Positions 15,281 through 49,940 of a stretch of DNA of 64,000 nt are shown in pieces. Below the pieces are notes generated by a model that had not been told where the DNA came from, did no database searches, and was given only the letters and a program-made list of their open reading frames with translations. Position numbers and translations under genes: made by a program. How positions within the stretch are numbered: position 1 is the stretch's first letter; each line of letters begins with the position of its first letter. Source of the stretch: Epilithonimonas xixisoli (GTDB lineage: Bacteria; Bacteroidota; Bacteroidia; Flavobacteriales; Weeksellaceae); NCBI RefSeq assembly GCF_004365655.1, contig NZ_SOEO01000003.1:744001-808000 (forward strand). The letters run 5' to 3'.

Positions 15281-16891
15281 TTATAATGAAACCCCTCGTT
15301 TCCAAGGGATAAATACATCCTGTTTTAGTTGGTCTGCTTTCGTTTCCACGTTACCGCTTGCCAATTCGATAATATAATCTACAATCTCCTCACCAACTTC
15401 CTGAATGCTTTTTTCGCCCGTGATCACGGTTCCTGCATTCACATCGATGATATCAGACATTCTGTTAATCAACGCTGTATTGGAAGAAATTTTCACAACC
15501 GGAGCGATTGGATTTCCCATCGGATTTCCTAAACCTGTGGTAAACAAAACGACTGTTGCGCCAGATCCTACCAATCCTGTGGTACATTCTGCATCGTTTC
15601 CTGGTGTGTTCAATAGATTTAAACCTGGTTTTGAAATGTATTCGCCGTAATCCAAAACATCGACGATTGGCGCAGTTCCACCTTTTTTAGAAGCACCTGC
15701 AGATTTCATGGCGTCGGTAATTAGACCATCTTTGATGTTTCCTGGCGATGGATTCATATCAAACCCTGAACCTGCATCCACAACGGATTTTTCGAAAGCT
15801 TTCATCAATGATAAAAACTTATCTGCTTTTTCCTCGTCCACACATCTGTTCATTAATTCCTGCTCAACTCCACACAATTCTGGGAATTCTGCCAAGATTG
15901 TTTTTCCACCCAATGCTGCGAAAATATCCGAAACAATTCCCAAAGCTGGATTGGCAGAAATTCCTGAGAATCCATCAGATCCACCACATTCCAAACCAAT
16001 GCTGATTTTAGAAACCGGCGCAGGTTGACGCTCGATTTTGTTGGCTCTTTTGATGGCTTCGAAAGAATCTTTGATCACCATTTGGAACATTTGATCCGTC
16101 GTTCCGATTTTTTGTTGCTCGAAGATCAAGATCTCTTTGTCGCTATTCGGGCTCATTTCTTTCAAAGCATTTTGAAAAATATCAACCTGAAGATTCTGAC
16201 AGCCTAAACTCAAAACCGTTGCACCAGCCACATTCGGGTTGTTCACATAGCCTGCTAGCAATTTTGCCAACAATTCAGAATCTTGACGGATTCCGCCACA
16301 ACCACCTTGGTGATTGATGAATTTCACCTCGATATTGTCTAGAAGATTCTCATTTCGAGATTTATCTTCCACTTCTGCCACGCTTTTTTCTTCAATCAGA
16401 GAGCGTAGGAAATTTTTGTAGGAAACTTCTTTTTTTGGCAACAATTCGTTTTCGAAAATGTCTTTCAGTTTCTCAATATTCTTGTTTTCACAAAAAACCA
16501 ATGGGAAAAATAGCCACACGTTTTTGGTACCAACTTGTCCGTCAGAGCGGTGATAACCATTGAACGTTTTGTCTTTCCATTTATCAACATTGGGTGGCGT
16601 CCAACCAAGATCTCCAGTTTTTTTGAAAACCGGTTCACTTTGGTGTTTCACATTTTCAGTCGTGATCACTTCACCCTTTTGGATGGTTTGATTGGCTTTT
16701 CCAACCACAACACCATACATGATAATTTGGTCGCCAGCTTCAAAATGTTCTCCAGCAAATTTATGTTTAGCTTTTGTATCCGTTAAAACTTGGTAAGTGA
16801 TTCCGTCTAATTCAACGAATTCACCAGCGTAAAGATCCATCAGCGCTACAACAACGTTGTCTTTTGGATTTACTTTTAATACTTTTTTCAT
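15281..16891 (-). CDS. uxaA: Altronate dehydratase
   Basis: The enzyme dehydrates D-altronate to 2-keto-3-deoxygluconate (KDG), the last dedicated step of saturated galacturonate catabolism. The 536-residue protein has an N-terminal SAF-type domain (about 1-95) and the large UxaA/GarD C-terminal domain, with 'GYHRSDGQVGTKN', 'HQGGCGG', 'LGCQN', 'GLECGGSDGFSGI' and 'TTGLGNPMGNPIAPV'; the cysteines are likely metal ligands. The length is normal for flavobacterial fused UxaA. It is the last gene of the minus-strand operon. A 228-base gap holding a dispersed repeat separates it from uxaB. A perfect LacI-type operator at 17158 and a weaker one at 16995 lie upstream, so it may have its own regulated promoter. 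Confidence 0.93.
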   Translation of the reverse strand: MKKVLKVNPKDNVVVALMDLYAGEFVELDGITYQVLTDTKAKHKFAGEHFEAGDQIIMYGVVVGKANQTIQKGEVITTENVKHQSEPVFKKTGDLGWTPPNVDKWKDKTFNGYHRSDGQVGTKNVWLFFPLVFCENKNIEKLKDIFENELLPKKEVSYKNFLRSLIEEKSVAEVEDKSRNENLLDNIEVKFINHQGGCGGIRQDSELLAKLLAGYVNNPNVAGATVLSLGCQNLQVDIFQNALKEMSPNSDKEILIFEQQKIGTTDQMFQMVIKDSFEAIKRANKIERQPAPVSKISIGLECGGSDGFSGISANPALGIVSDIFAALGGKTILAEFPELCGVEQELMNRCVDEEKADKFLSLMKAFEKSVVDAGSGFDMNPSPGNIKDGLITDAMKSAGASKKGGTAPIVDVLDYGEYISKPGLNLLNTPGNDAECTTGLVGSGATVVLFTTGLGNPMGNPIAPVVKISSNTALINRMSDIIDVNAGTVITGEKSIQEVGEEIVDYIIELASGNVETKADQLKQDVFIPWKRGVSL

Positions 16892-17119: not shown

Positions 17120-18577
17120 TTACTGAACGAAACTTTTATAACCTTCCTCAATACCACTGCAATCGATTGCACTAAGGGCTTTAGTCACAGATTCCAATAG
17201 TCTTGGAACTTCAGTAAGATCCTGATCCCAGAAACTGATTTCAGACAAAGCTGCTTTTGCCACTTCTCCAAGATCATTGTTTGCCCAGATTTCGTTGAAT
17301 CTTGCAATCACTGGCGCATCATCCATCACTGGAAGTTGCTTCCCGTTGAATTCACCTTGGTAGAATCTGATCAAAGCTGCAAGAGCGAAAGTCAAATTGG
17401 TAGGCAATTCGTTTTTAGTTTCAACATATTGTAACAAACTTGGCAACACTCTCACTTTGAATTTCGCAATTGAGTTCAATGCAATGCTAGAAAGCTGGTG
17501 TTTCAAGAATGGATTTCTGAATCTATCAAAAACTTCCTCAGCGAAAGCCGTCAATTCTTCTTTTGAAAGGTCAAGCGTTGGGATGATTTCGTTGTAAACT
17601 GTATCAGAAATGAATTTTCCAGCGAATTCCGCATCGATTGCTTCTTTTACAGTTTCTTTACCGTCAAGGATAGAGAATGCCAACATTGCTGTGTGAGCGC
17701 CGTTCAGGATTCTTACTTTTCTGGTTCTGTATGGTGTGATGTCATCAACGATCAAAACCTGATCATCAATTTTATCAAAAGGAATCTTAGCTTTCAATTT
17801 GTCATCACCTTCGATCACCCAAAGTAAGAATGCTTCGCAAACTACCATTAAGCTATCATCATAATCAAATTTAGCTTCGTATTCGTCTTTTTCTTCTCTT
17901 GGATATCCAGGCACGATTCTGTCCACCAAAGTGTTGTGGAAAGAATTGCTGTTCTCAACCCAAGCAGAGAAACCTTCTTCCAGATTCCAAAGTTGAGCAT
18001 ATTGAAGAATATATTTTTTTAATGTCAATCCATTATTCTCGATCAATTCGCAAGGAATGATGTGAAGACCTTTGTCCTCAGCACCATTGAAATGTTTGAA
18101 TCTTTCGTAAAGGAAAGCAGTCACTTTTGCAGGGAAATTCTTGTGCGGTCCAGCTTCAAGCGTTGTTTCAGATGGGTCAAAAGCAATTCCAGCTTCAGTG
18201 GTGTTTGATAAGATAAACTCAAGATCTTCGCCTTTCGCCAAATCAAGATATTCTTGATAATTTTCGTAAGGACTTAATGATCTTTGGATGGCGGAAATCA
18301 CGCTTTGATCGTCCACAATTTGACCTTTCTTCACACCTCTCACGAAAAGCGTGTAAAGATTATTTTGCTCTTCCAGCATATCAACAAGTCCACCTTGAGT
18401 TGGCTGAACAACCGCAACACCAGCATTGAAACCAGCTTCTTTGTTCATCTTGTCAATCAAATAATCAACAAAGGCACGCAAGAAGTTTCCTTCTCCAAAT
18501 TGTAAAAATTTTATCGGTAGTTTCTCCGTCAAAGCGGCGTTTTCACGGCTAAGTTTTTGTTTTGTCTGATATTCCAT
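17120..18577 (-). CDS. uxaB: Tagaturonate reductase
   Basis: The enzyme reduces D-tagaturonate to D-altronate with NADH. The 485-residue protein belongs to the mannitol dehydrogenase/UxaB family: an N-terminal nucleotide-binding part begins at about residue 24 ('LQFGEGNFLRAFVDYLID'), 'FILSNTTEAGI' is near 110, and the C-terminal domain carries 'RKVRILNGAHTAML', which holds the conserved catalytic Lys/Asn/His region of this family. It lies 5 bases after exuT in the same direction. The final codons contain a perfect 14-bp LacI-type palindrome at 17158, encoding Ala-Ile-Asp-Cys near the C-terminus. Confidence 0.92.
   Translation of the reverse strand: MEYQTKQKLSRENAALTEKLPIKFLQFGEGNFLRAFVDYLIDKMNKEAGFNAGVAVVQPTQGGLVDMLEEQNNLYTLFVRGVKKGQIVDDQSVISAIQRSLSPYENYQEYLDLAKGEDLEFILSNTTEAGIAFDPSETTLEAGPHKNFPAKVTAFLYERFKHFNGAEDKGLHIIPCELIENNGLTLKKYILQYAQLWNLEEGFSAWVENSNSFHNTLVDRIVPGYPREEKDEYEAKFDYDDSLMVVCEAFLLWVIEGDDKLKAKIPFDKIDDQVLIVDDITPYRTRKVRILNGAHTAMLAFSILDGKETVKEAIDAEFAGKFISDTVYNEIIPTLDLSKEELTAFAEEVFDRFRNPFLKHQLSSIALNSIAKFKVRVLPSLLQYVETKNELPTNLTFALAALIRFYQGEFNGKQLPVMDDAPVIARFNEIWANNDLGEVAKAALSEISFWDQDLTEVPRLLESVTKALSAIDCSGIEEGYKSFVQ
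17158..17171. promoter_or_regulatory. Perfect palindromic LacI-type operator inside uxaB
   Basis: TGCAATCGATTGCA is a perfect palindrome that fits TGnAAnCGnTTnCA and is identical to the site before susC. It lies in the 3' end of the uxaB frame, 266 bases before the uxaA start. It could control an internal promoter for uxaA or act as a roadblock to elongation. Confidence 0.6.
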
Positions 18578-26550: not shown

Positions 26551-26564
26551 TGCAATCGATTGCA
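26551..26564. promoter_or_regulatory. Perfect palindromic LacI-type operator before susC
   Basis: TGCAATCGATTGCA is a perfect palindrome, identical to the copy inside uxaB. It lies 72 bases before the susC start and just downstream of the inferred transcription start. Confidence 0.82.
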
Positions 26565-32003: not shown

Positions 32004-34571
32004 ATGAATAAAATTAAATTACTTTATGTTTTCCTATTGCTTGCTTTCACGCAGGTAACGGGACAATCTGTGACACTCGGCGAGTCGGGTGGATGGCTAG
32101 AAACTGCCTACGTAAAATGGCAACCTGTAGAAGGTGCTGGCAGATACAATGTTTACTACTCCGGTGAAGGTGTTGTGAACAAAAAGGTTGATGACTATTT
32201 GATCCGTAGTTACGGTTCGTATTTCAGAGCAGATGTTCTGGGACTTAAAGCTGGTTCTTACACAATCTCTGTAAGTCCAGTAATTGGTGGTGTAGAAGCG
32301 CCAGGAGCAACTACAAGTACACTAACAGTTTTGCCTCACGACAGAAACGGTTTTGCTTTTGCAAACGGAAGAGTTCCTGGAGGTTACAAAGCAGACGGAA
32401 CGCCTAAAGATAATGCGGTTATTATTTACATCACTCAAAATAGCAAGAATAATGTGACTTTTGATGTGGTGACAAATAACAAAGGAAACACAACAAATTA
32501 TGTTGGATTTCAAAACATTATTTCTGGAATCAAAAAAGGGTACGAAAACAGACCTTTTATTTTCAGATTGGTAGGGAATATCACAGATTTCGCTACTATG
32601 GAAGGTGGAGACATTGTGTTGGAAAACAAAAACAATACAAACAGCCACATCACTGTAGAAGGTGTTGGAAACGATGCTACTGCAAACGGATGGGGAATTC
32701 GTGTTAAAAATGCGACCAATATCCAGATCAACAATCTTGGTTTCCTAAACTGCGACAGTAGTGAAGGTGACAATATCGGGATGCAACAAAACAACACGCA
32801 CATCTGGGCTCACAACAACGACTTGTTCTACGGAAACGCTGGTAGCGACGCAGATCAAATCAAAGGTGATGGTGCCTTGGACAACAAAGGAACTACTTTC
32901 GCAACTTATGCTTACAACCACTTCTGGGATTCTGGAAAAGGAAGTTTGCTAGGATTGAGCGAGGGTTCTAATGCAGGATTGTATGTAACTTATCACCACA
33001 ACTGGTTCGATCATTCAGATTCTAGACATCCAAGAGTACGTTATTATTCAGCTCACATTTACAACAATTATTTTGATGGCGTTTCTAAATACGGTTCAGG
33101 TTCTACTTTGGGTTCTTCTCTTTTTGTAGAAAACAACTATTTCAGAAATTCTAAAAATCCAATGATGATCTCTATGCAGGGAACAGACGTTTGGAGTCCA
33201 TCAAAACAAATGAACGATCCAGGCAACCAAGGAACTTTCTCTGGTGAAAATGGTGGAATGATCAAAGCATTCAACAATGTAATTGATACAGATATCGCGA
33301 CAAATTCTATGCGTTTTGTGGCGTATGGAGATCCTAATCCAGAATTCAATATTCCTGGAAAAATCAGTTCAACAGTAGATTTTGATGCTTATTTGGCGAC
33401 AACTCGTGGTGAGGAAGTTCCAAACACGGTTAAGTCTTTCAGAGGTGCTAACACTTACAACAACTTTGATACAGATGCAGATCTTTATGTAAAAAATCTT
33501 GTAGTAGAAGACCCAACGGTTGCTAGAGATAAAGTTAAAGTTTATGCTGGTAGAGTACAAGGTGGCGACATCAAATGGGCTTTTGATAATCTTATAGATG
33601 ACAAATCTTATGCAGTAATCCCAGCGCTTAAAGCTTTATTGACTGGTTACGGAACTTCTTTGGTTTACATCCAAGCAGAAGCGCCAAGTAGCCAAACATT
33701 GGTAAATACTTCTGGAAACAAAGATCAAACAGTTGCAGAAAATGTTGCAATTGCACCAATCGTGTTTACTTGGGGTGGAGATGCGACTGACGTTGCCATC
33801 ACAGGATTACCTGCAAATGGACTTACTGTAACGAAAAATGCATCGGCTAAAACAGCGACTATCACTGGAACGCCAACTGCAAGTACGGCTTACTCAGTAA
33901 CTACAACTGGTGGATCTGGAGCGTCAATCTCAATAAGTGGATCTGTGACGGTTGGAACTACGCCTCCTCCTGCAAGTGGTGGTGAGATTCATAACTTCAC
34001 AACTTCAGAAAAAGTGAGTACTTTCTACTCAATTACTGGAAATATGAATTCTACAAATGGTTCTCAAACTTACGACGGAAACACTTTGACAAGACGTATC
34101 AAAATAGAATCTTCTACCAACATCAGTTATACAACTACGGAAGAATCTACTTTAACTTTAGTTTTTGATGCAGATTTTAGCAAAAAAATTAAGTTTAATG
34201 GTGAGAATTATACGGCTACAAACGGTGTTCTTGTAATTCCAAATGTTCCAGCTGGTACTCACGCTATCACAAAAGGTGATACGACGAATTTGTTCTACAT
34301 CAAAACGGTTTATGCAAATATGGCGACAAGTGATATCAACAAAGCTCAAGTGTCTGTATATCCAAATCCAGTTTCTGATGTATTAAGAATCAACACAGCT
34401 GGACAGAAAATTCTTAATGTGAAAGTTTACAGTTTTGCTGGAAATGTAGTTAAGAATATCACAGAAGTAAAAGGTGATTCAGTTGATTTAAGAAATCTGA
34501 ATACAGGAAACTATATCGTGACTATCACAACAGATAAAGGTACAGTGACCAAAAAAATTATCAAAAAATAA
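32004..34571 (+). CDS. Multi-domain PL1 pectate lyase with T9SS type A sorting domain
   Basis: The enzyme would cleave de-esterified homogalacturonan by beta-elimination, giving unsaturated ends. The 855-residue protein has a signal peptide (to about residue 20, 'TQVTGQ'), a fibronectin III-like domain (about 25-105), a PL1 parallel beta-helix (about 115-500; 'GWGIRVKNATNIQINNLGF', 'DQIKGDGALD', 'YVTYHHNWFDHSDSRHPRVR'), a putative Ig domain (about 561-650), a CBM-like beta-sandwich (about 658-770; 'LTLVFDADFSKKIKFNG', 'LFYIKTVYA') and a T9SS tail (about 778-855, 'VSVYPNPVSDVLRI'). The His-Pro-Arg-Val-Arg segment holds the catalytic Arg of PL1. It acts at the surface or outside the cell, feeding SusCD. 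Confidence 0.9.
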   Translation: MNKIKLLYVFLLLAFTQVTGQSVTLGESGGWLETAYVKWQPVEGAGRYNVYYSGEGVVNKKVDDYLIRSYGSYFRADVLGLKAGSYTISVSPVIGGVEAPGATTSTLTVLPHDRNGFAFANGRVPGGYKADGTPKDNAVIIYITQNSKNNVTFDVVTNNKGNTTNYVGFQNIISGIKKGYENRPFIFRLVGNITDFATMEGGDIVLENKNNTNSHITVEGVGNDATANGWGIRVKNATNIQINNLGFLNCDSSEGDNIGMQQNNTHIWAHNNDLFYGNAGSDADQIKGDGALDNKGTTFATYAYNHFWDSGKGSLLGLSEGSNAGLYVTYHHNWFDHSDSRHPRVRYYSAHIYNNYFDGVSKYGSGSTLGSSLFVENNYFRNSKNPMMISMQGTDVWSPSKQMNDPGNQGTFSGENGGMIKAFNNVIDTDIATNSMRFVAYGDPNPEFNIPGKISSTVDFDAYLATTRGEEVPNTVKSFRGANTYNNFDTDADLYVKNLVVEDPTVARDKVKVYAGRVQGGDIKWAFDNLIDDKSYAVIPALKALLTGYGTSLVYIQAEAPSSQTLVNTSGNKDQTVAENVAIAPIVFTWGGDATDVAITGLPANGLTVTKNASAKTATITGTPTASTAYSVTTTGGSGASISISGSVTVGTTPPPASGGEIHNFTTSEKVSTFYSITGNMNSTNGSQTYDGNTLTRRIKIESSTNISYTTTEESTLTLVFDADFSKKIKFNGENYTATNGVLVIPNVPAGTHAITKGDTTNLFYIKTVYANMATSDINKAQVSVYPNPVSDVLRINTAGQKILNVKVYSFAGNVVKNITEVKGDSVDLRNLNTGNYIVTITTDKGTVTKKIIKK

Positions 34572-35778: not shown

Positions 35779-35797
35779 CCCTCTCCTTTGGAGAGGG
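35779..35797. repeat. Perfect hairpin CCCTCTCC-TTT-GGAGAGGG
   Basis: The 8-base GC-rich arms have a 3-base loop and are followed by TTGGGGTGAGG. This is a familiar bacterial intergenic repeat wording. It lies in the 69-base gap before the DUF4861 gene. Confidence 0.75.
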
Positions 35798-35826
35798 TTG
35801 GGGTGAGGAAAATAAAAATATTAAAA

Positions 35827-36825
35827 ATGAAAAACATCATTCTAAAATCCATCTACTCAGGAATCCTGATCAGTTTCATCAACTGCTCAGCCCAAACCGA
35901 TGTGATTCAGAAAATCAAAAAAAACGGAAGCAAACCTTTCACTTACGCTGAATTATCCGTGAAGGAAGGTGGAAAATGGGAAGGCAATAAATACGTTGGT
36001 GGCACTTTCAAAAACATCACAGAACTTTCTATTCCAGCTGAACATACAGACCATTCTTCTTACATCAGATACGAAGGAATCGGTTTGGAAAACAACCAAG
36101 TTGGCTACAGATTGTACCTCGATTGGAGAAATGCCACCGATATTTTCGGTAAAAAAATGACCACTTTGGTTTTACCAGAAGTAGGACAAGATGGCTTCGA
36201 ATCTTACCACCACGATGCACCTTGGGGACAGGATATTTTGAAATCCGGTCGTACAATTGGTGTTGGTTCGTACGGAAGATATGACGAGCAAAATGACTTC
36301 GTAGAAACTTTCAAAATTGTAAAAAATACAGATGTAAAAGTGACGAACGAAGCCGATAAATCCTTCGCAACAATCAATTATAAAGGTTGGAAAACTTGGG
36401 GCGACGCGGTAGATTTGCAATCCAAACTCACGATTTTCAACAAAGACCGTTTCGTAAAAGTCGATTTGGAATTGAGCAATACGATTTCTGGTTTGTGCAC
36501 TGGGATTGTTGCTATTAAAGATATTCCGTTCAAACAAGTCGTTAGCAAAAACGGAAAATGGGCGTACATCGCGACTTACGGACAACAAACTTTAGCCAAA
36601 AAAGAAGACAATCTTGGGATGGCAGTTATTTATCCAATCGATAATTTTGATAAGTATGTGAAAACAAAATCCACGCACGTTGTGGTTTTCAAAAAGAATA
36701 AAAATGCGTCCTATTACTTTCTGGGCGCGTGGTCTCAGGAACCAAACGGTATCAAAACAGAAGCAGATTTTTACAAAGATTTGGACAGCAAGTTAGAATT
36801 GTTGGACAAAGAAGGGAAGTTGTAA
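35827..36825 (+). CDS. DUF4861-family exported protein
   Basis: The start at 35827 ('MKNIILKSIYSGILISF') is chosen because it begins a signal sequence; the earlier in-frame start lies inside the hairpin at 35779. The 332-residue protein has a possible lipobox ending at Cys20 ('SFINC') and a single beta-rich domain with 'GIGLENNQVGYRLYLDWRN', 'HHDAPWGQDILKSGRTIGVG' and 'YYFLGAWSQEPNGI', as in DUF4861 proteins. This family recurs in pectin and other uronate-glycan loci but I know of no settled activity. It lies between a methylesterase and a GH105 enzyme, so a role on short uronic-acid oligomers in the periplasm is an inference. Confidence 0.75.
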   Translation: MKNIILKSIYSGILISFINCSAQTDVIQKIKKNGSKPFTYAELSVKEGGKWEGNKYVGGTFKNITELSIPAEHTDHSSYIRYEGIGLENNQVGYRLYLDWRNATDIFGKKMTTLVLPEVGQDGFESYHHDAPWGQDILKSGRTIGVGSYGRYDEQNDFVETFKIVKNTDVKVTNEADKSFATINYKGWKTWGDAVDLQSKLTIFNKDRFVKVDLELSNTISGLCTGIVAIKDIPFKQVVSKNGKWAYIATYGQQTLAKKEDNLGMAVIYPIDNFDKYVKTKSTHVVVFKKNKNASYYFLGAWSQEPNGIKTEADFYKDLDSKLELLDKEGKL

Positions 36826-44984: not shown

Positions 44985-44998
44985 TGCAATCGATTAAC
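44985..44998. promoter_or_regulatory. Weak distal LacI-type operator
   Basis: TGCAATCGATTAAC has a perfect left half and matches 8 of 10 fixed bases. It lies 229 bases upstream of the strong site. Confidence 0.45.
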
Positions 44999-45172: not shown

Positions 45173-45191
45173 AATAATTTTATATTAGAAC
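45173..45191 (+). promoter_or_regulatory. Shared promoter-like box, copy 1
   Basis: The 19-mer AATAATTTTATATTAGAAC is identical at 46375-46393. Its TATATTAG (45181-45188) resembles the -7 box and the susC TAGTTTAG. The operator starts 33 bases after it. Confidence 0.55.
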
Positions 45192-45213: not shown

Positions 45214-45227
45214 TGTAATCGATTGCA
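45214..45227. promoter_or_regulatory. LacI-type operator before the first small T9SS protein
   Basis: TGTAATCGATTGCA lies in the 16-mer GTGTAATCGATTGCAT, identical to the kduI site. It ends 37 bases before the ATG. Confidence 0.8.
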
Positions 45228-45264: not shown

Positions 45265-46050
45265 ATGAAAAAACTATTATTTTCTTTAATGATTGCAGGG
45301 GTTTCTGCAGTAACTTTTAATGCGCAAAATAAATCTTGGGATTTTAAAAATTTTACAGCTGGTGTAATTACAGCTGATTATACAACTGCTGATGGTTTGT
45401 CGTTTGTGAGAGGTGGTAGTGATCTTACTATTGCAACTAATAATTTGGGATCGTTTGTAGATGGTTTTGTGCCGGTACAACGTTTGGCGTTTGGAGGCAA
45501 TAGTTATTCTGGATCAACTAATCCTGCTGAAGGTACAACGGCGATGCCTACAAGACGTTATGTTAAGTTTGATGTTCCTGGGCCAGGTGTTGTAAAATTA
45601 TGGGGGAGAGGTGGAAATAGCGGTAGATCTTTGATTATTTCTGAAGCTGATGGTAAGGTTCTGAAGTCGCATACATATGCAACCAATGGTAGTACTGATT
45701 TGCCTACAATAGAATATTCCTATGCGGGTGGTGCTGGAACCTTATTGGTGTCAACTGGTTCTGGTGATAATAGTCTTTACAAAATTGAGTACATTGATGC
45801 GGCAACGATGGCGGTTGGTGATGTGAAATCTAGCGTAAAAGCTAATGCATTCTCCAGTGGTAATAGAATTTATGTTTCTAATTTGGAGTCTAAAAATACA
45901 AATATCAGCGTTTACAATGCTAATGGATCTCTAGTGAAGTCTTTAAAATCTTCTTCTGATACAAACTTCGAAATCAATACAAAAGGACTTTATATTGTGA
46001 ATCTTAAGTCGGAAGCTGGTGAAAAATCTGTGAAGGTTTTGATCAAATAA
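45265..46050 (+). CDS. Small secreted CBM-like protein with T9SS tail, paralogue 1
   Basis: The 261-residue protein has a signal peptide (to about 21, 'VTFNAQ'), one beta-sandwich-like domain (about 22-175) and a T9SS type A sorting tail (about 185-261). The domain starts with 'SWDFKNF' and has 'RYVKFDVPGPGVVKLWGRGG' and 'SLYKIEYI', a pattern seen in carbohydrate-binding-like modules attached to Bacteroidota pectinases, and it resembles part of the PL1 protein at 32004. No catalytic motif is visible. Its own LacI-type operator and promoter box suggest strong pectin-controlled expression. I infer a surface pectin-binding protein; the family is not one with a known function. Confidence 0.72.
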   Translation: MKKLLFSLMIAGVSAVTFNAQNKSWDFKNFTAGVITADYTTADGLSFVRGGSDLTIATNNLGSFVDGFVPVQRLAFGGNSYSGSTNPAEGTTAMPTRRYVKFDVPGPGVVKLWGRGGNSGRSLIISEADGKVLKSHTYATNGSTDLPTIEYSYAGGAGTLLVSTGSGDNSLYKIEYIDAATMAVGDVKSSVKANAFSSGNRIYVSNLESKNTNISVYNANGSLVKSLKSSSDTNFEINTKGLYIVNLKSEAGEKSVKVLIK

Positions 46051-46091
46051 TTAAAATTTCAGTAGTAATATTTTCATAATTTTTTTCAAAG

Positions 46092-46129
46092 AAAATCCCT
46101 GTAATTTATTTTGCAGGGATTTTTATTTT
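46092..46129 (+). terminator. Rho-independent terminator
   Basis: AAAATCCCTG pairs with CAGGGATTTTT around an AT loop, followed by a long T-rich run. It ends the first small T9SS gene as a single-gene transcript. Confidence 0.85.
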
Positions 46130-46209
46130 TTTTTTATCGGTTTAATTATTCTAAAATTTTTTTTAAATGCCGTTTTTTGGAAAATAGCTACTGATTTTAG
46201 TTAAATTAA

Positions 46210-46223
46210 GACAACCGATTGCA
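46210..46223. promoter_or_regulatory. Weak distal LacI-type operator
   Basis: GACAACCGATTGCA keeps the right half and the central CG and matches 8 of 10 fixed bases. It lies 207 bases upstream of the strong site. Confidence 0.4.
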
Positions 46224-46374
46224 CTGATTTTTGTCATGAAATTTAACTAGAAATATCGCTGTGCAATAATTTATGAAATATTTTATTAGCTGAAAACTAT
46301 TATGAATAAAAGGTTTTTAAAGTTTATTAAATTAATTTAACATTAAATTAAAAAAAAATATCGTGATATTGAAT

Positions 46375-46393
46375 AATAATTTTATATTAGAAC
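46375..46393 (+). promoter_or_regulatory. Shared promoter-like box, copy 2
   Basis: It is identical to 45173-45191. The operator starts 34 bases after the TATATTAG. Confidence 0.55.
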
Positions 46394-46416
46394 TGTCGAA
46401 AAGTTACACAAATGAG

Positions 46417-46430
46417 TGTAATCGATTGCA
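46417..46430. promoter_or_regulatory. LacI-type operator before the second small T9SS protein
   Basis: TGTAATCGATTGCA lies in the same 16-mer as the kduI and first-paralogue sites. It ends 35 bases before the ATG. Confidence 0.8.
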
Positions 46431-46465
46431 TAGAAAATTATAACAATTAAATAAATTATTTTATC

Positions 46466-47248
46466 ATGAAAAAATCATTACTTCTTTTAGCATTTGCAGT
46501 TGTTGCTACTGTAGGAAACGTAAAAGCTCAAACTACTTGGGATTTCTCTAGTGCGGCTTGGCCAGTGATTGCTGGTGAGACTACGGCAACTGTGAAAAAT
46601 AATCTTGGTCTTGTACCGGGGCCAATAACATCTGCGAACTTTGCACAGGTAGAGGCTAACACCGCAAATTTCTCCGATGGTTATTCTGCAACAAAACGTT
46701 TCAAATTGAATGGAGGTGGTTTTACTTCTACGGGGGTTAATACTACGCCAACACAACGTTATGTTGTATTCAAGGTTAATGGAAACTCAGCAGTTAAAGT
46801 TTGGTACAAAAACGGAGGCGGCGGAGATCGTATATTGTACATCGGAACTGGGAGCTCTATTCTTGCTTCAAACACGTACTCTAACTCATCAGACGGGATT
46901 ATCTACACTTACGATTACGTAGGTCCTGCAAGAGATCTTTATATCTACGGAGATACTTCTCTTAACATCTACAAAATCACTGCTACCAATGTTGGAACAA
47001 CTGTTCTTGGTGTAAACGACTTGAAGAAAGATATGAAAGCTACGGCTTACACATCTGGTAACAAAGTTTTCTTGTCGAATCTAGAATCCAAAAATACTCA
47101 GGTTAATGTTTTCAACGCAAACGGATCTTTGGTAAAATCTTTGAAAGCTTCTGCAGACACAAACTTCGAAATCAGCACGAAAGGTTTCTATATTGTAAAT
47201 CTTAAATCTGAAGCAGGTGAAAAATCTGTGAAAGTAATCATCAGATAA
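46466..47248 (+). CDS. Small secreted CBM-like protein with T9SS tail, paralogue 2
   Basis: The 260-residue protein has the same plan as 45265: a signal peptide (to about 21, 'GNVKAQ'), a beta-sandwich-like domain starting 'TTWDFSSAAWPVI' with 'RYVVFKVNGNSAVKVWYKNGG' and 'SLNIYKITA', and a T9SS tail. The last ~70 residues are almost identical to paralogue 1 ('SNLESKNT', 'NGSLVKSLK', 'YIVNLKSEAGEKSVKV'), while the binding-like domain has diverged. The duplication includes the promoter box and the operator. No enzyme motif is visible. The function is unknown; a surface pectin-binding role is inferred from regulation and fold resemblance. Confidence 0.72.
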   Translation: MKKSLLLLAFAVVATVGNVKAQTTWDFSSAAWPVIAGETTATVKNNLGLVPGPITSANFAQVEANTANFSDGYSATKRFKLNGGGFTSTGVNTTPTQRYVVFKVNGNSAVKVWYKNGGGGDRILYIGTGSSILASNTYSNSSDGIIYTYDYVGPARDLYIYGDTSLNIYKITATNVGTTVLGVNDLKKDMKATAYTSGNKVFLSNLESKNTQVNVFNANGSLVKSLKASADTNFEISTKGFYIVNLKSEAGEKSVKVIIR

Positions 47249-47310: not shown

Positions 47311-47348
47311 AAAGTTTGATGAAACCCGCTTTCATCAAACTTTTTTTA
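47311..47348 (+). terminator. Rho-independent terminator
   Basis: AAAGTTTGATGAAA pairs with TTTCATCAAACTTT around CCCGC, followed by T. It separates the second small T9SS gene from the PL1 gene. Confidence 0.85.
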
Positions 47349-48706: not shown

Positions 48707-48911
48707 ACGAATGGCGATTGCTGTCGTTATGGTGTTATTAATTGTTTAAAAATTGAAACTTTATAGGATATTATTTTTAATCGTAATTGCATTATTGCAA
48801 GATTATGATAAGCTACGGAATTTAATACTTGTTTTTTAAAAAAATTAAGGTAAAAAATCCGTAGTGACAGGGATTTATTTATATATTTACAACCATTCAG
48901 ATAAAGAATAC

Positions 48912-49940
48912 ATGACTAAAAAAAATACGACGATATATGACATTTCTAAAAAACTGAATGTAAGTGTAGCGACTGTTTCCAGAGCGCTAAACAACCATCC
49001 CAGAATCAGCCAGGCAACCAAGGAATTGGTAGCTGCAACGGCGAAAGAAATGAACTATAAGCAAAACAATCTTGCAAAAGCGCTTCAAAGTGGAGAAACC
49101 AAAACGGTGGGCGTGATTGTTCCGTATATCAATACCAATTTTTTCTCATCAGTTATTCGGGGAATCGAAGAAGAGCTTTCTCCGCACGGCTACCGTGTGA
49201 TTATCTGCCAAAGTCACGATGACACCAATATTGAGAAAAAACAACTCAATACTTTGCTGAATACACAAGTGGACTGTATTTTTATTTCGATATCCAGAAA
49301 CACGACGGATTTGGAATATGTGAGTAAAATCCTGAATACTACCAACACACCGATTATATTTTTCGATAGAAAGAAAGATGTCCCAGGAATCAGCACGATT
49401 ACTATTGATGACCACAAAGGCGCCTATCTGGCAACTGAACATTTGATCAATCAAGGGTATAAAAATATCTATCACTTTTCTGGAGATCAGAATCTGGAGA
49501 TTTACCAGCACAGGTTGAGTGGCTACATCAGTGCTTTGAACGATTACAAAATTCCGGTTGTGGAGGATAACATTATCAATACAGGAAGCTCCATTGAGGA
49601 AGGGATTTTGGCGATGAAAAATGTCTGGAAAAGAAAGATAAAACCAGATGCTATTTTTTCGGCTTCAGATTTTACGGCGTTGGGCGTTTGTAAAGAAATC
49701 AAAAACTTAAAACTGAAAATGCCTCAGGATATTGGCGTGATTGGTTTTAGTAATGAGCCTTTCACACAATTTATGGAGTTGTCTATCAGTTCGGTAGATC
49801 AAACGCCGGTTTTGATGGGTAAGATTTCTGCCAATGTATTTTTAGAAAGCATCAAAGATAATTTCTCAGGTATCACGATAGAAAAAAAGCTGGTTTTGAA
49901 ACCAATTCTCTGCGTTCGGGAATCATCAAAAAGAAAATAA
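48912..49940 (+). CDS. LacI-family transcriptional regulator of the pectin locus
   Basis: The start at 48912 ('MTKKNTTIYDISKKLNVSV') fits the family; an in-frame upstream start would add 16 residues without homology. The 342-residue protein has a LacI HTH (about 5-28, recognition helix 'SVATVSRALNNHPRIS'), the hinge helix 'NNLAKALQSGETKTVGV' and a periplasmic-binding-like effector domain ('IFSASDFTALGVC', 'GVIGFSNEPFTQFMELSISSV'). Its position at the end of the pectin genes and the family-type operators before four units make it the likely regulator. The inducer is unknown; KDG or an unsaturated uronate is plausible by analogy with other pectin regulators. Confidence 0.9.
   Translation: MTKKNTTIYDISKKLNVSVATVSRALNNHPRISQATKELVAATAKEMNYKQNNLAKALQSGETKTVGVIVPYINTNFFSSVIRGIEEELSPHGYRVIICQSHDDTNIEKKQLNTLLNTQVDCIFISISRNTTDLEYVSKILNTTNTPIIFFDRKKDVPGISTITIDDHKGAYLATEHLINQGYKNIYHFSGDQNLEIYQHRLSGYISALNDYKIPVVEDNIINTGSSIEEGILAMKNVWKRKIKPDAIFSASDFTALGVCKEIKNLKLKMPQDIGVIGFSNEPFTQFMELSISSVDQTPVLMGKISANVFLESIKDNFSGITIEKKLVLKPILCVRESSKRK

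Follow-up and report, generated by a model that had tools for sequence, protein, structure and literature searches.

Our principal finding is that two neighbouring genes in a pectin PUL of Epilithonimonas xixisoli, here called A and B, probably encode stand-alone pectin-binding proteins. These are predicted to be controlled by a LacI-family regulator, delivered by the type IX system (T9SS), and used in a role like that of SusE and SusF. Both genes lie in a 64-kb stretch of DNA (64,000 nucleotides, hereafter the window), and the coordinates of all relevant features are collected in Table 1. Since A and B are built for T9SS export, have the fold of the pectin-binding arm of a pectate lyase, and share their operator with pectin genes, their probable function is to retain pectin on the outside of the cell.

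Table 1. Positions, in the window, of the pectin PUL, genes A and B, and their control elements
Feature	Position	Strand	Details
PUL	26637-49940		genes identified by family searches
PL1 pectate lyase	32004-34571	+	PF00544; CBM77 (PF18283, E 2.3e-31; CBM77 homologue 5fu5); PF18962
Protein A	45265-46050	+	261 aa; intact Epilithonimonas gene in pectin PUL; signal peptide ~1-20, beta-sandwich binding-type domain ~22-178, T9SS type A tail ~190-261
Protein B	46466-47248	+	260 aa; intact Epilithonimonas gene in pectin PUL; architecture as A, with conserved binding domain ~23-175, then T9SS type A tail
Promoter box A	45175-45191	+	TAATTTTATATTAGAAC
Promoter box B	46377-46393	+	TAATTTTATATTAGAAC
Primary operator A	45214-45227		TGTAATCGATTGCA, 37 nt before ATG; at most two mismatches in 12/12 species
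Primary operator B	46417-46430		TGTAATCGATTGCA, 35 nt before ATG; exact in 12/12 species
Auxiliary operator A	44985-44998		TGCAATCGATTAAC, 229 bp upstream of primary site
Auxiliary operator B	46210-46223		GACAACCGATTGCA, 207 bp upstream of primary site; weaker, degenerate
Operator before susC	26551-26564		TGCAATCGATTGCA
Operator before probable kduI	25891-25904		gene name from translation alone
Terminator A	46091-46124	+	hairpin and T-run
Terminator B	47311-47343	+	hairpin and T-run
LacI-family regulator	48864-49940	+	PF00532/PF00356

The original prediction was of two small paralogous T9SS proteins, each with a signal peptide, one domain and a sorting tail, and lacking an enzyme motif. Every one of these elements was found. 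A and B are 41% identical across their full length (BLASTP) and each contains one domain of ~155 residues. Both N-termini follow the pattern MKK-hydrophobic-AQ and the signal peptides are of the non-lipoprotein kind; there is no cysteine anywhere in A or B, and hence no lipobox cysteine. Neither protein matched an enzyme family in Pfam or NCBIfam. The tails score 35.0 (A) and 30.9 bits (B) with TIGR04183, where the curated cut-off is 23, and 29.3 and 27.3 with PF18962, where it is 27. A T9SS is available, as the genome encodes SprA (TIGR04189, 2041 bits). Type A tails serve to attach proteins to the cell surface, where A and B are expected to be located. In the genome (3.39 Mb, 11 contigs), A and B are the sole members of their family, the remaining matches being to the tail only. 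A search for plasmid carriage gave no match.

The tails were also predicted to be nearly identical, and the domains to differ. The latter holds: the two domains share 31% identity in the E. xixisoli genome, far below the similarity of the tails. The former overstates the case. Over the last 64 residues, 50 are identical (74% at the nucleotide level), so the tails are better described as similar. Gene conversion of tails within a genome was considered but is not supported: pairing A and B tails from the same genome gives 60.4% identity, and from different genomes 60.1% (permutation p 0.40).

No Pfam, NCBIfam or PHROG family covers the domain of A and B. A match to phrog_34573 was discarded because it spans residues 2-40 alone, corresponding to the signal peptide and domain start. 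Models were built with AlphaFold2 from family alignments, with mean pLDDT of 85 (A) and 82 (B), and are confident over the domain. A CBM-like beta-domain had been proposed, and comparison with the PDB bears this out, the best matches of both models being carbohydrate-binding domains of putative pectate lyases. For A, these are 8x8h (E 7e-10, TM 0.85 by target) and then 8wc1 (E 2e-9, 0.81); for B, the order is 8wc1 (E 3e-8, TM 0.79 by target) and then 8x8h (E 1e-7, 0.78). These two entries lead the next match by about three orders of magnitude in E-value for A, and by one to two for B. Note that both are titled ‘A carbohydrate binding domain of a putative pectate lyase’, which are the words of the depositors. 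The relationship is also detectable in sequence. A profile built from 27 relatives and run with hmmsearch picks out 8wc1 (‘Pectate lyase family 9’) with an E-value of 4.8e-5 across the full domain; for 8x8h, the E-value is 0.0035. In the literature searched, we found no publication on either structure, and no Pfam family lies over the matched fragment of either. Membership of CBM77 was rejected, since neither A nor B matches PF18283, and hhalign against the CBM77 alignment of the PUL gave a probability of 6.9%.

Three arginines stand out in the family (R78, R98 and R122 in B; R73, R98 and R121 in A). These positions are basic in 96-100% of the 27 relatives. For the B residues, arginine itself occurs in at least 25 of the 27, and also aligns in 8wc1 and 8x8h. 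Conceivably, these arginines could be structural rather than ligand-binding. With a pI of 5.8, the A domain is a little on the acidic side, and across the family the domain pI varies between 4.1 and 8.8, so a general basic patch is not guaranteed.

A more distant relative may occur in methylesterases. Sister PULs encode T9SS-tailed CE8 pectin methylesterases of ~1070, and up to 1500, residues (L120:4926-8153, L136:12183-15401, L137, L138, L139, and others). Aligned by hhalign, the A/B domain and the N-terminal WDFG domain of these enzymes give a probability of 81% (E 1.3e-5); for the same relation, hmmsearch against a set of locus ORFs gives an E-value of 5.7e-5. This points to a distant relationship with the CE8 N-terminal region, which is weaker than the link to 8wc1, but significant. 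The CE8 proteins in the E. xixisoli window have no N-terminal domain related to that of A and B.

The surrounding PUL contains SusC, SusD, a PL1 lyase with CBM77 and a T9SS tail, two CE8 pectinesterases, and a DUF4861 protein. These are accompanied by GH105 (PF07470), GH43, a CE12-like GDSL esterase, GH28, a BD-FAE-type esterase, A, B, a second PL1 with a T9SS tail, and the LacI regulator. Genes divergent from the PUL, named from their translations alone, look like those for galacturonate and ketodeoxygluconate catabolism. Among the proteins of this PUL, we found no lipoprotein SGBP of the SusE/SusF type. The DUF4861 protein (window 35788-36825) recurs in pectin PULs across genera.

Genes A and B probably share their control with this locus. 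The 14-mer operator class TGYAATCGATTRCA conforms perfectly to the LacI/GalR operator type TGNAANCGNTTNCA, and the genome contains five copies. All are inside the window, and the reversed control sequence occurs nowhere. Four of these sites precede genes (susC, the divergent probable kduI, A, and B) and the fifth is inside gene 17120-18577. Palindromic operators near promoters, together with a LacI-family gene in the PUL, are as expected of a LacI/GalR-type regulon. Across 12 species, the distance from operator to start codon is 34-38 nt for B and 31-38 nt for A, and the operator core is the main invariant block when leaders are aligned. Similarly, in other genera, all 23 relatives have an operator within three mismatches, and 22 of the 23 within two. 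Of 3000 shuffles, none gave an exact site, and only one came as close as a single mismatch. A promoter box, operator and terminator had been predicted for each gene separately, and all could be placed before or after A and B. The box, TAATTTTATATTAGAAC, is found as an exact sequence only before A and B genome-wide, and is nearly invariant over the 12 species. Terminator-like sites in the region number 4, compared with 0.9 ± 0.8 in shuffled sequence. With a conserved promoter and a single-gene layout, A and B may be abundant products, and we expect their expression to be induced by pectin. No Rfam element was detected in either leader. A TTACAC..GTGTAA palindrome is seen just upstream of the operator in some species; as it is not conserved, we make no claim for an RNA hairpin.

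The fifth operator palindrome (17158-17171) is exact and falls within coding sequence, near the 3' end of gene 17120-18577 (encoding AIDC). The gene is probably tagaturonate reductase, and the palindrome precedes the start of the following gene in the group (15281-16891, minus strand) by ~270 nt. Where exact operator sites were sampled elsewhere in the genus, they were near susC and GH28, or other PUL genes, and not in the tagaturonate reductase coding region. Some other species of the genus (L154, L155, and L157-L160) have the operator before a different SusC, ~30% identical to that of the window, which hints that the regulon includes a further locus for uronate or pectin.

Each gene also has a candidate second operator further upstream. 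For A, this auxiliary site is present in 11 of 12 species, 229-232 bp from the primary operator. For B, the distance is 206-207 bp where the site could be scored; 10 of 12 species have it within three mismatches, and all 12 by a looser core pattern. The B spacing is near-constant even though the A-B intergenic length differs among species (395-492 nt) and the intervening DNA shows little conservation. Note that the chance of an auxiliary operator match is ~8% per gene. The arrangement is consistent with DNA looping between two operators, which probably occurs at both A and B. The LacI-family protein encoded at 48864-49940 is the best candidate for operator binding, as judged by co-occurrence. 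An orthologue is present in all genomes of the genus that have the operator and are at least 95% complete. Against this, three genomes of the genus have the orthologue without an exact operator.

The A/B pair is found in 12 of 23 genomes of the genus, always as two copies. The PL1-CBM77 lyase has the same distribution, with the addition of one fragmentary, 73%-complete MAG that is without the pair. In a family-wide sample, all 13 genomes bearing CBM77 also carry an A/B-type domain. Relatives of A and B occur in two families of Flavobacteriales and all are small, single-domain proteins. In other genera, 19 of 20 neighbourhoods place the gene among pectin genes, with gene order rearranged. The exception, which counts against a strict association, is a lone family member away from recognised pectin genes (L134:9844-10692). 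Even this gene retains an exact operator, 79 nt upstream of the start and adjoining a TATATTTG-type box. A pectin role for A and B is supported by operator conservation, synteny, and co-occurrence with the CBM77 lyase.

The same observations bear on whether A and B are instead plant cell-wall adhesins, which would bind pectin or another wall polymer for attachment and not to feed the importer. Surface anchoring by type A tails, the lack of an enzyme, and an operator shared with the PUL would all suit such proteins, and the A domain varies from one species to another in the manner often seen in surface adhesins. However, the PUL and its lyase co-occur strictly and are syntenic with A and B, which fits feeding at least as well, and A and B are small, single-domain proteins without the repeats usual in large adhesins. 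We consider attachment an unlikely function.

Changes in the A domain are extensive. Between species, mean pairwise domain identity is 75% for B and 49% for A. Comparing A with its counterpart in the sister genome G011, where PL1 is 96% identical, the signal peptide is 100% identical, the tail 73%, and the domain 36%. For G016, the equivalent values are 86%, 88% and 33%. Ten of the A domains form a clade in a phylogenetic tree (support 100/99) that excludes those of G014 and G016, which lie near B or types from other genera; because several of these branches are long, the exact placement of these variants is unsure. The agreement of tails, with domains that differ, extends to exchange of domains between fixed ends. 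Hence, the binding domain of A has been replaced in several species, with signal peptide and tail conserved, and this observation is new here. Such turnover might mean that the ligand has been lost or altered. The target would then be an oligosaccharide or a different pectin-complex polymer (RG-I side chains, arabinan, mucilage), and A would be under diversifying selection as a surface antigen or phage receptor. The acidic A domain and its exchange between kept ends agree with this, but the conserved arginine set persists in the A types, and regulon and fold still indicate pectin. We regard a changed ligand as quite unlikely. That A and B are secreted accessory modules, docking on or targeting the T9SS pectate lyases or methylesterase as a scaffold or helper, and not cell-anchored glycan catchers, is improbable. 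In its favour, PL9 lyases (8wc1) and, in sister PULs, CE8 esterases carry a homologous domain as a fusion, and the A and B genes are always near PL1 and CE8 genes. However, their own type A tails should anchor the proteins independently, and no cohesin- or dockerin-like partner domain was seen in the PUL proteins scanned.

Our preferred explanation remains that A and B are pectin-binding proteins serving the PUL. We propose that a LacI/GalR-type regulator, probably that encoded at 48864, represses both genes through the primary operator, just downstream of the promoter. The second operator, 206-232 bp upstream, would assist repression, probably via a DNA loop. In the presence of a pectin breakdown product, the regulator would be released. 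The signal peptide would then take each ~25 kDa product across the inner membrane and the type IX system would take it across the outer one, after which the type A tail would anchor it at the surface. Here, the beta-sandwich domain, of the kind associated with pectate lyases, would hold pectin, probably by its galacturonate backbone, through the conserved arginines. A and B would work beside the SusCD importer and two T9SS-exported pectate lyases, and fill the job of the SusE/SusF surface glycan-binding proteins absent from this PUL.

If this is correct, flavobacterial pectin loci catch their substrate with single binding domains exported by T9SS, and not with SusE/F lipoproteins. In addition, a clear ligand candidate would emerge for a carbohydrate-binding domain that is uncatalogued in Pfam, along with a system amenable to study. 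The host is a soil-type bacterium in which one of the two proteins swaps its binding domain between species, and the variable A slot would amount to a set of naturally exchanged domains sharing a single scaffold. Control of Bacteroidota PULs is usually ascribed to SusR-like, hybrid two-component, or ECF-sigma systems. The operator pair, with its strongly conserved spacing, offers a testable LacI-type switch in this phylum. A tentative extension, which we think possible but would not yet rely upon, is that a widespread class of T9SS-delivered, single-domain glycan binders replaces SusE/F in flavobacterial pectin loci. The B slot would be conserved, and the A slot would be a variable cassette between fixed ends, tuning each species to its pectin or allowing escape from phage or host recognition.

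Several known systems invite comparison. The beta-sandwich CBM BT0996-C, from Bacteroides thetaiotaomicron, binds the polygalacturonate backbone through basic residues (PMC9843283). It differs in being CBM35/6-like, part of a multi-domain RG-II enzyme, and equipped with a lysine-rich patch; no sequence relation to A or B was detected. The homogalacturonan-binding module CBM77 (PF18283, 5fu5) is likewise pectate-lyase-associated, and is carried by the PL1 enzyme of the same PUL, but A and B do not match its family. Closer are 8wc1 and 8x8h, with which A and B have in common the beta-sandwich fold (TM by target 0.78-0.85), detectable sequence homology, and arginine positions. These domains were deposited as parts of pectate lyases, whereas A and B stand alone with a T9SS tail, and identity is 17-19%. 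In the literature searched, we found no paper on stand-alone SGBPs exported by T9SS. The SusE/SusF SGBPs are lipoproteins, in contrast to the cysteine-free A and B with their T9SS type A tails. Like those proteins, A and B are non-enzymatic, PUL-encoded, under the same operator as susC, and candidates for binding glycan at the cell surface.
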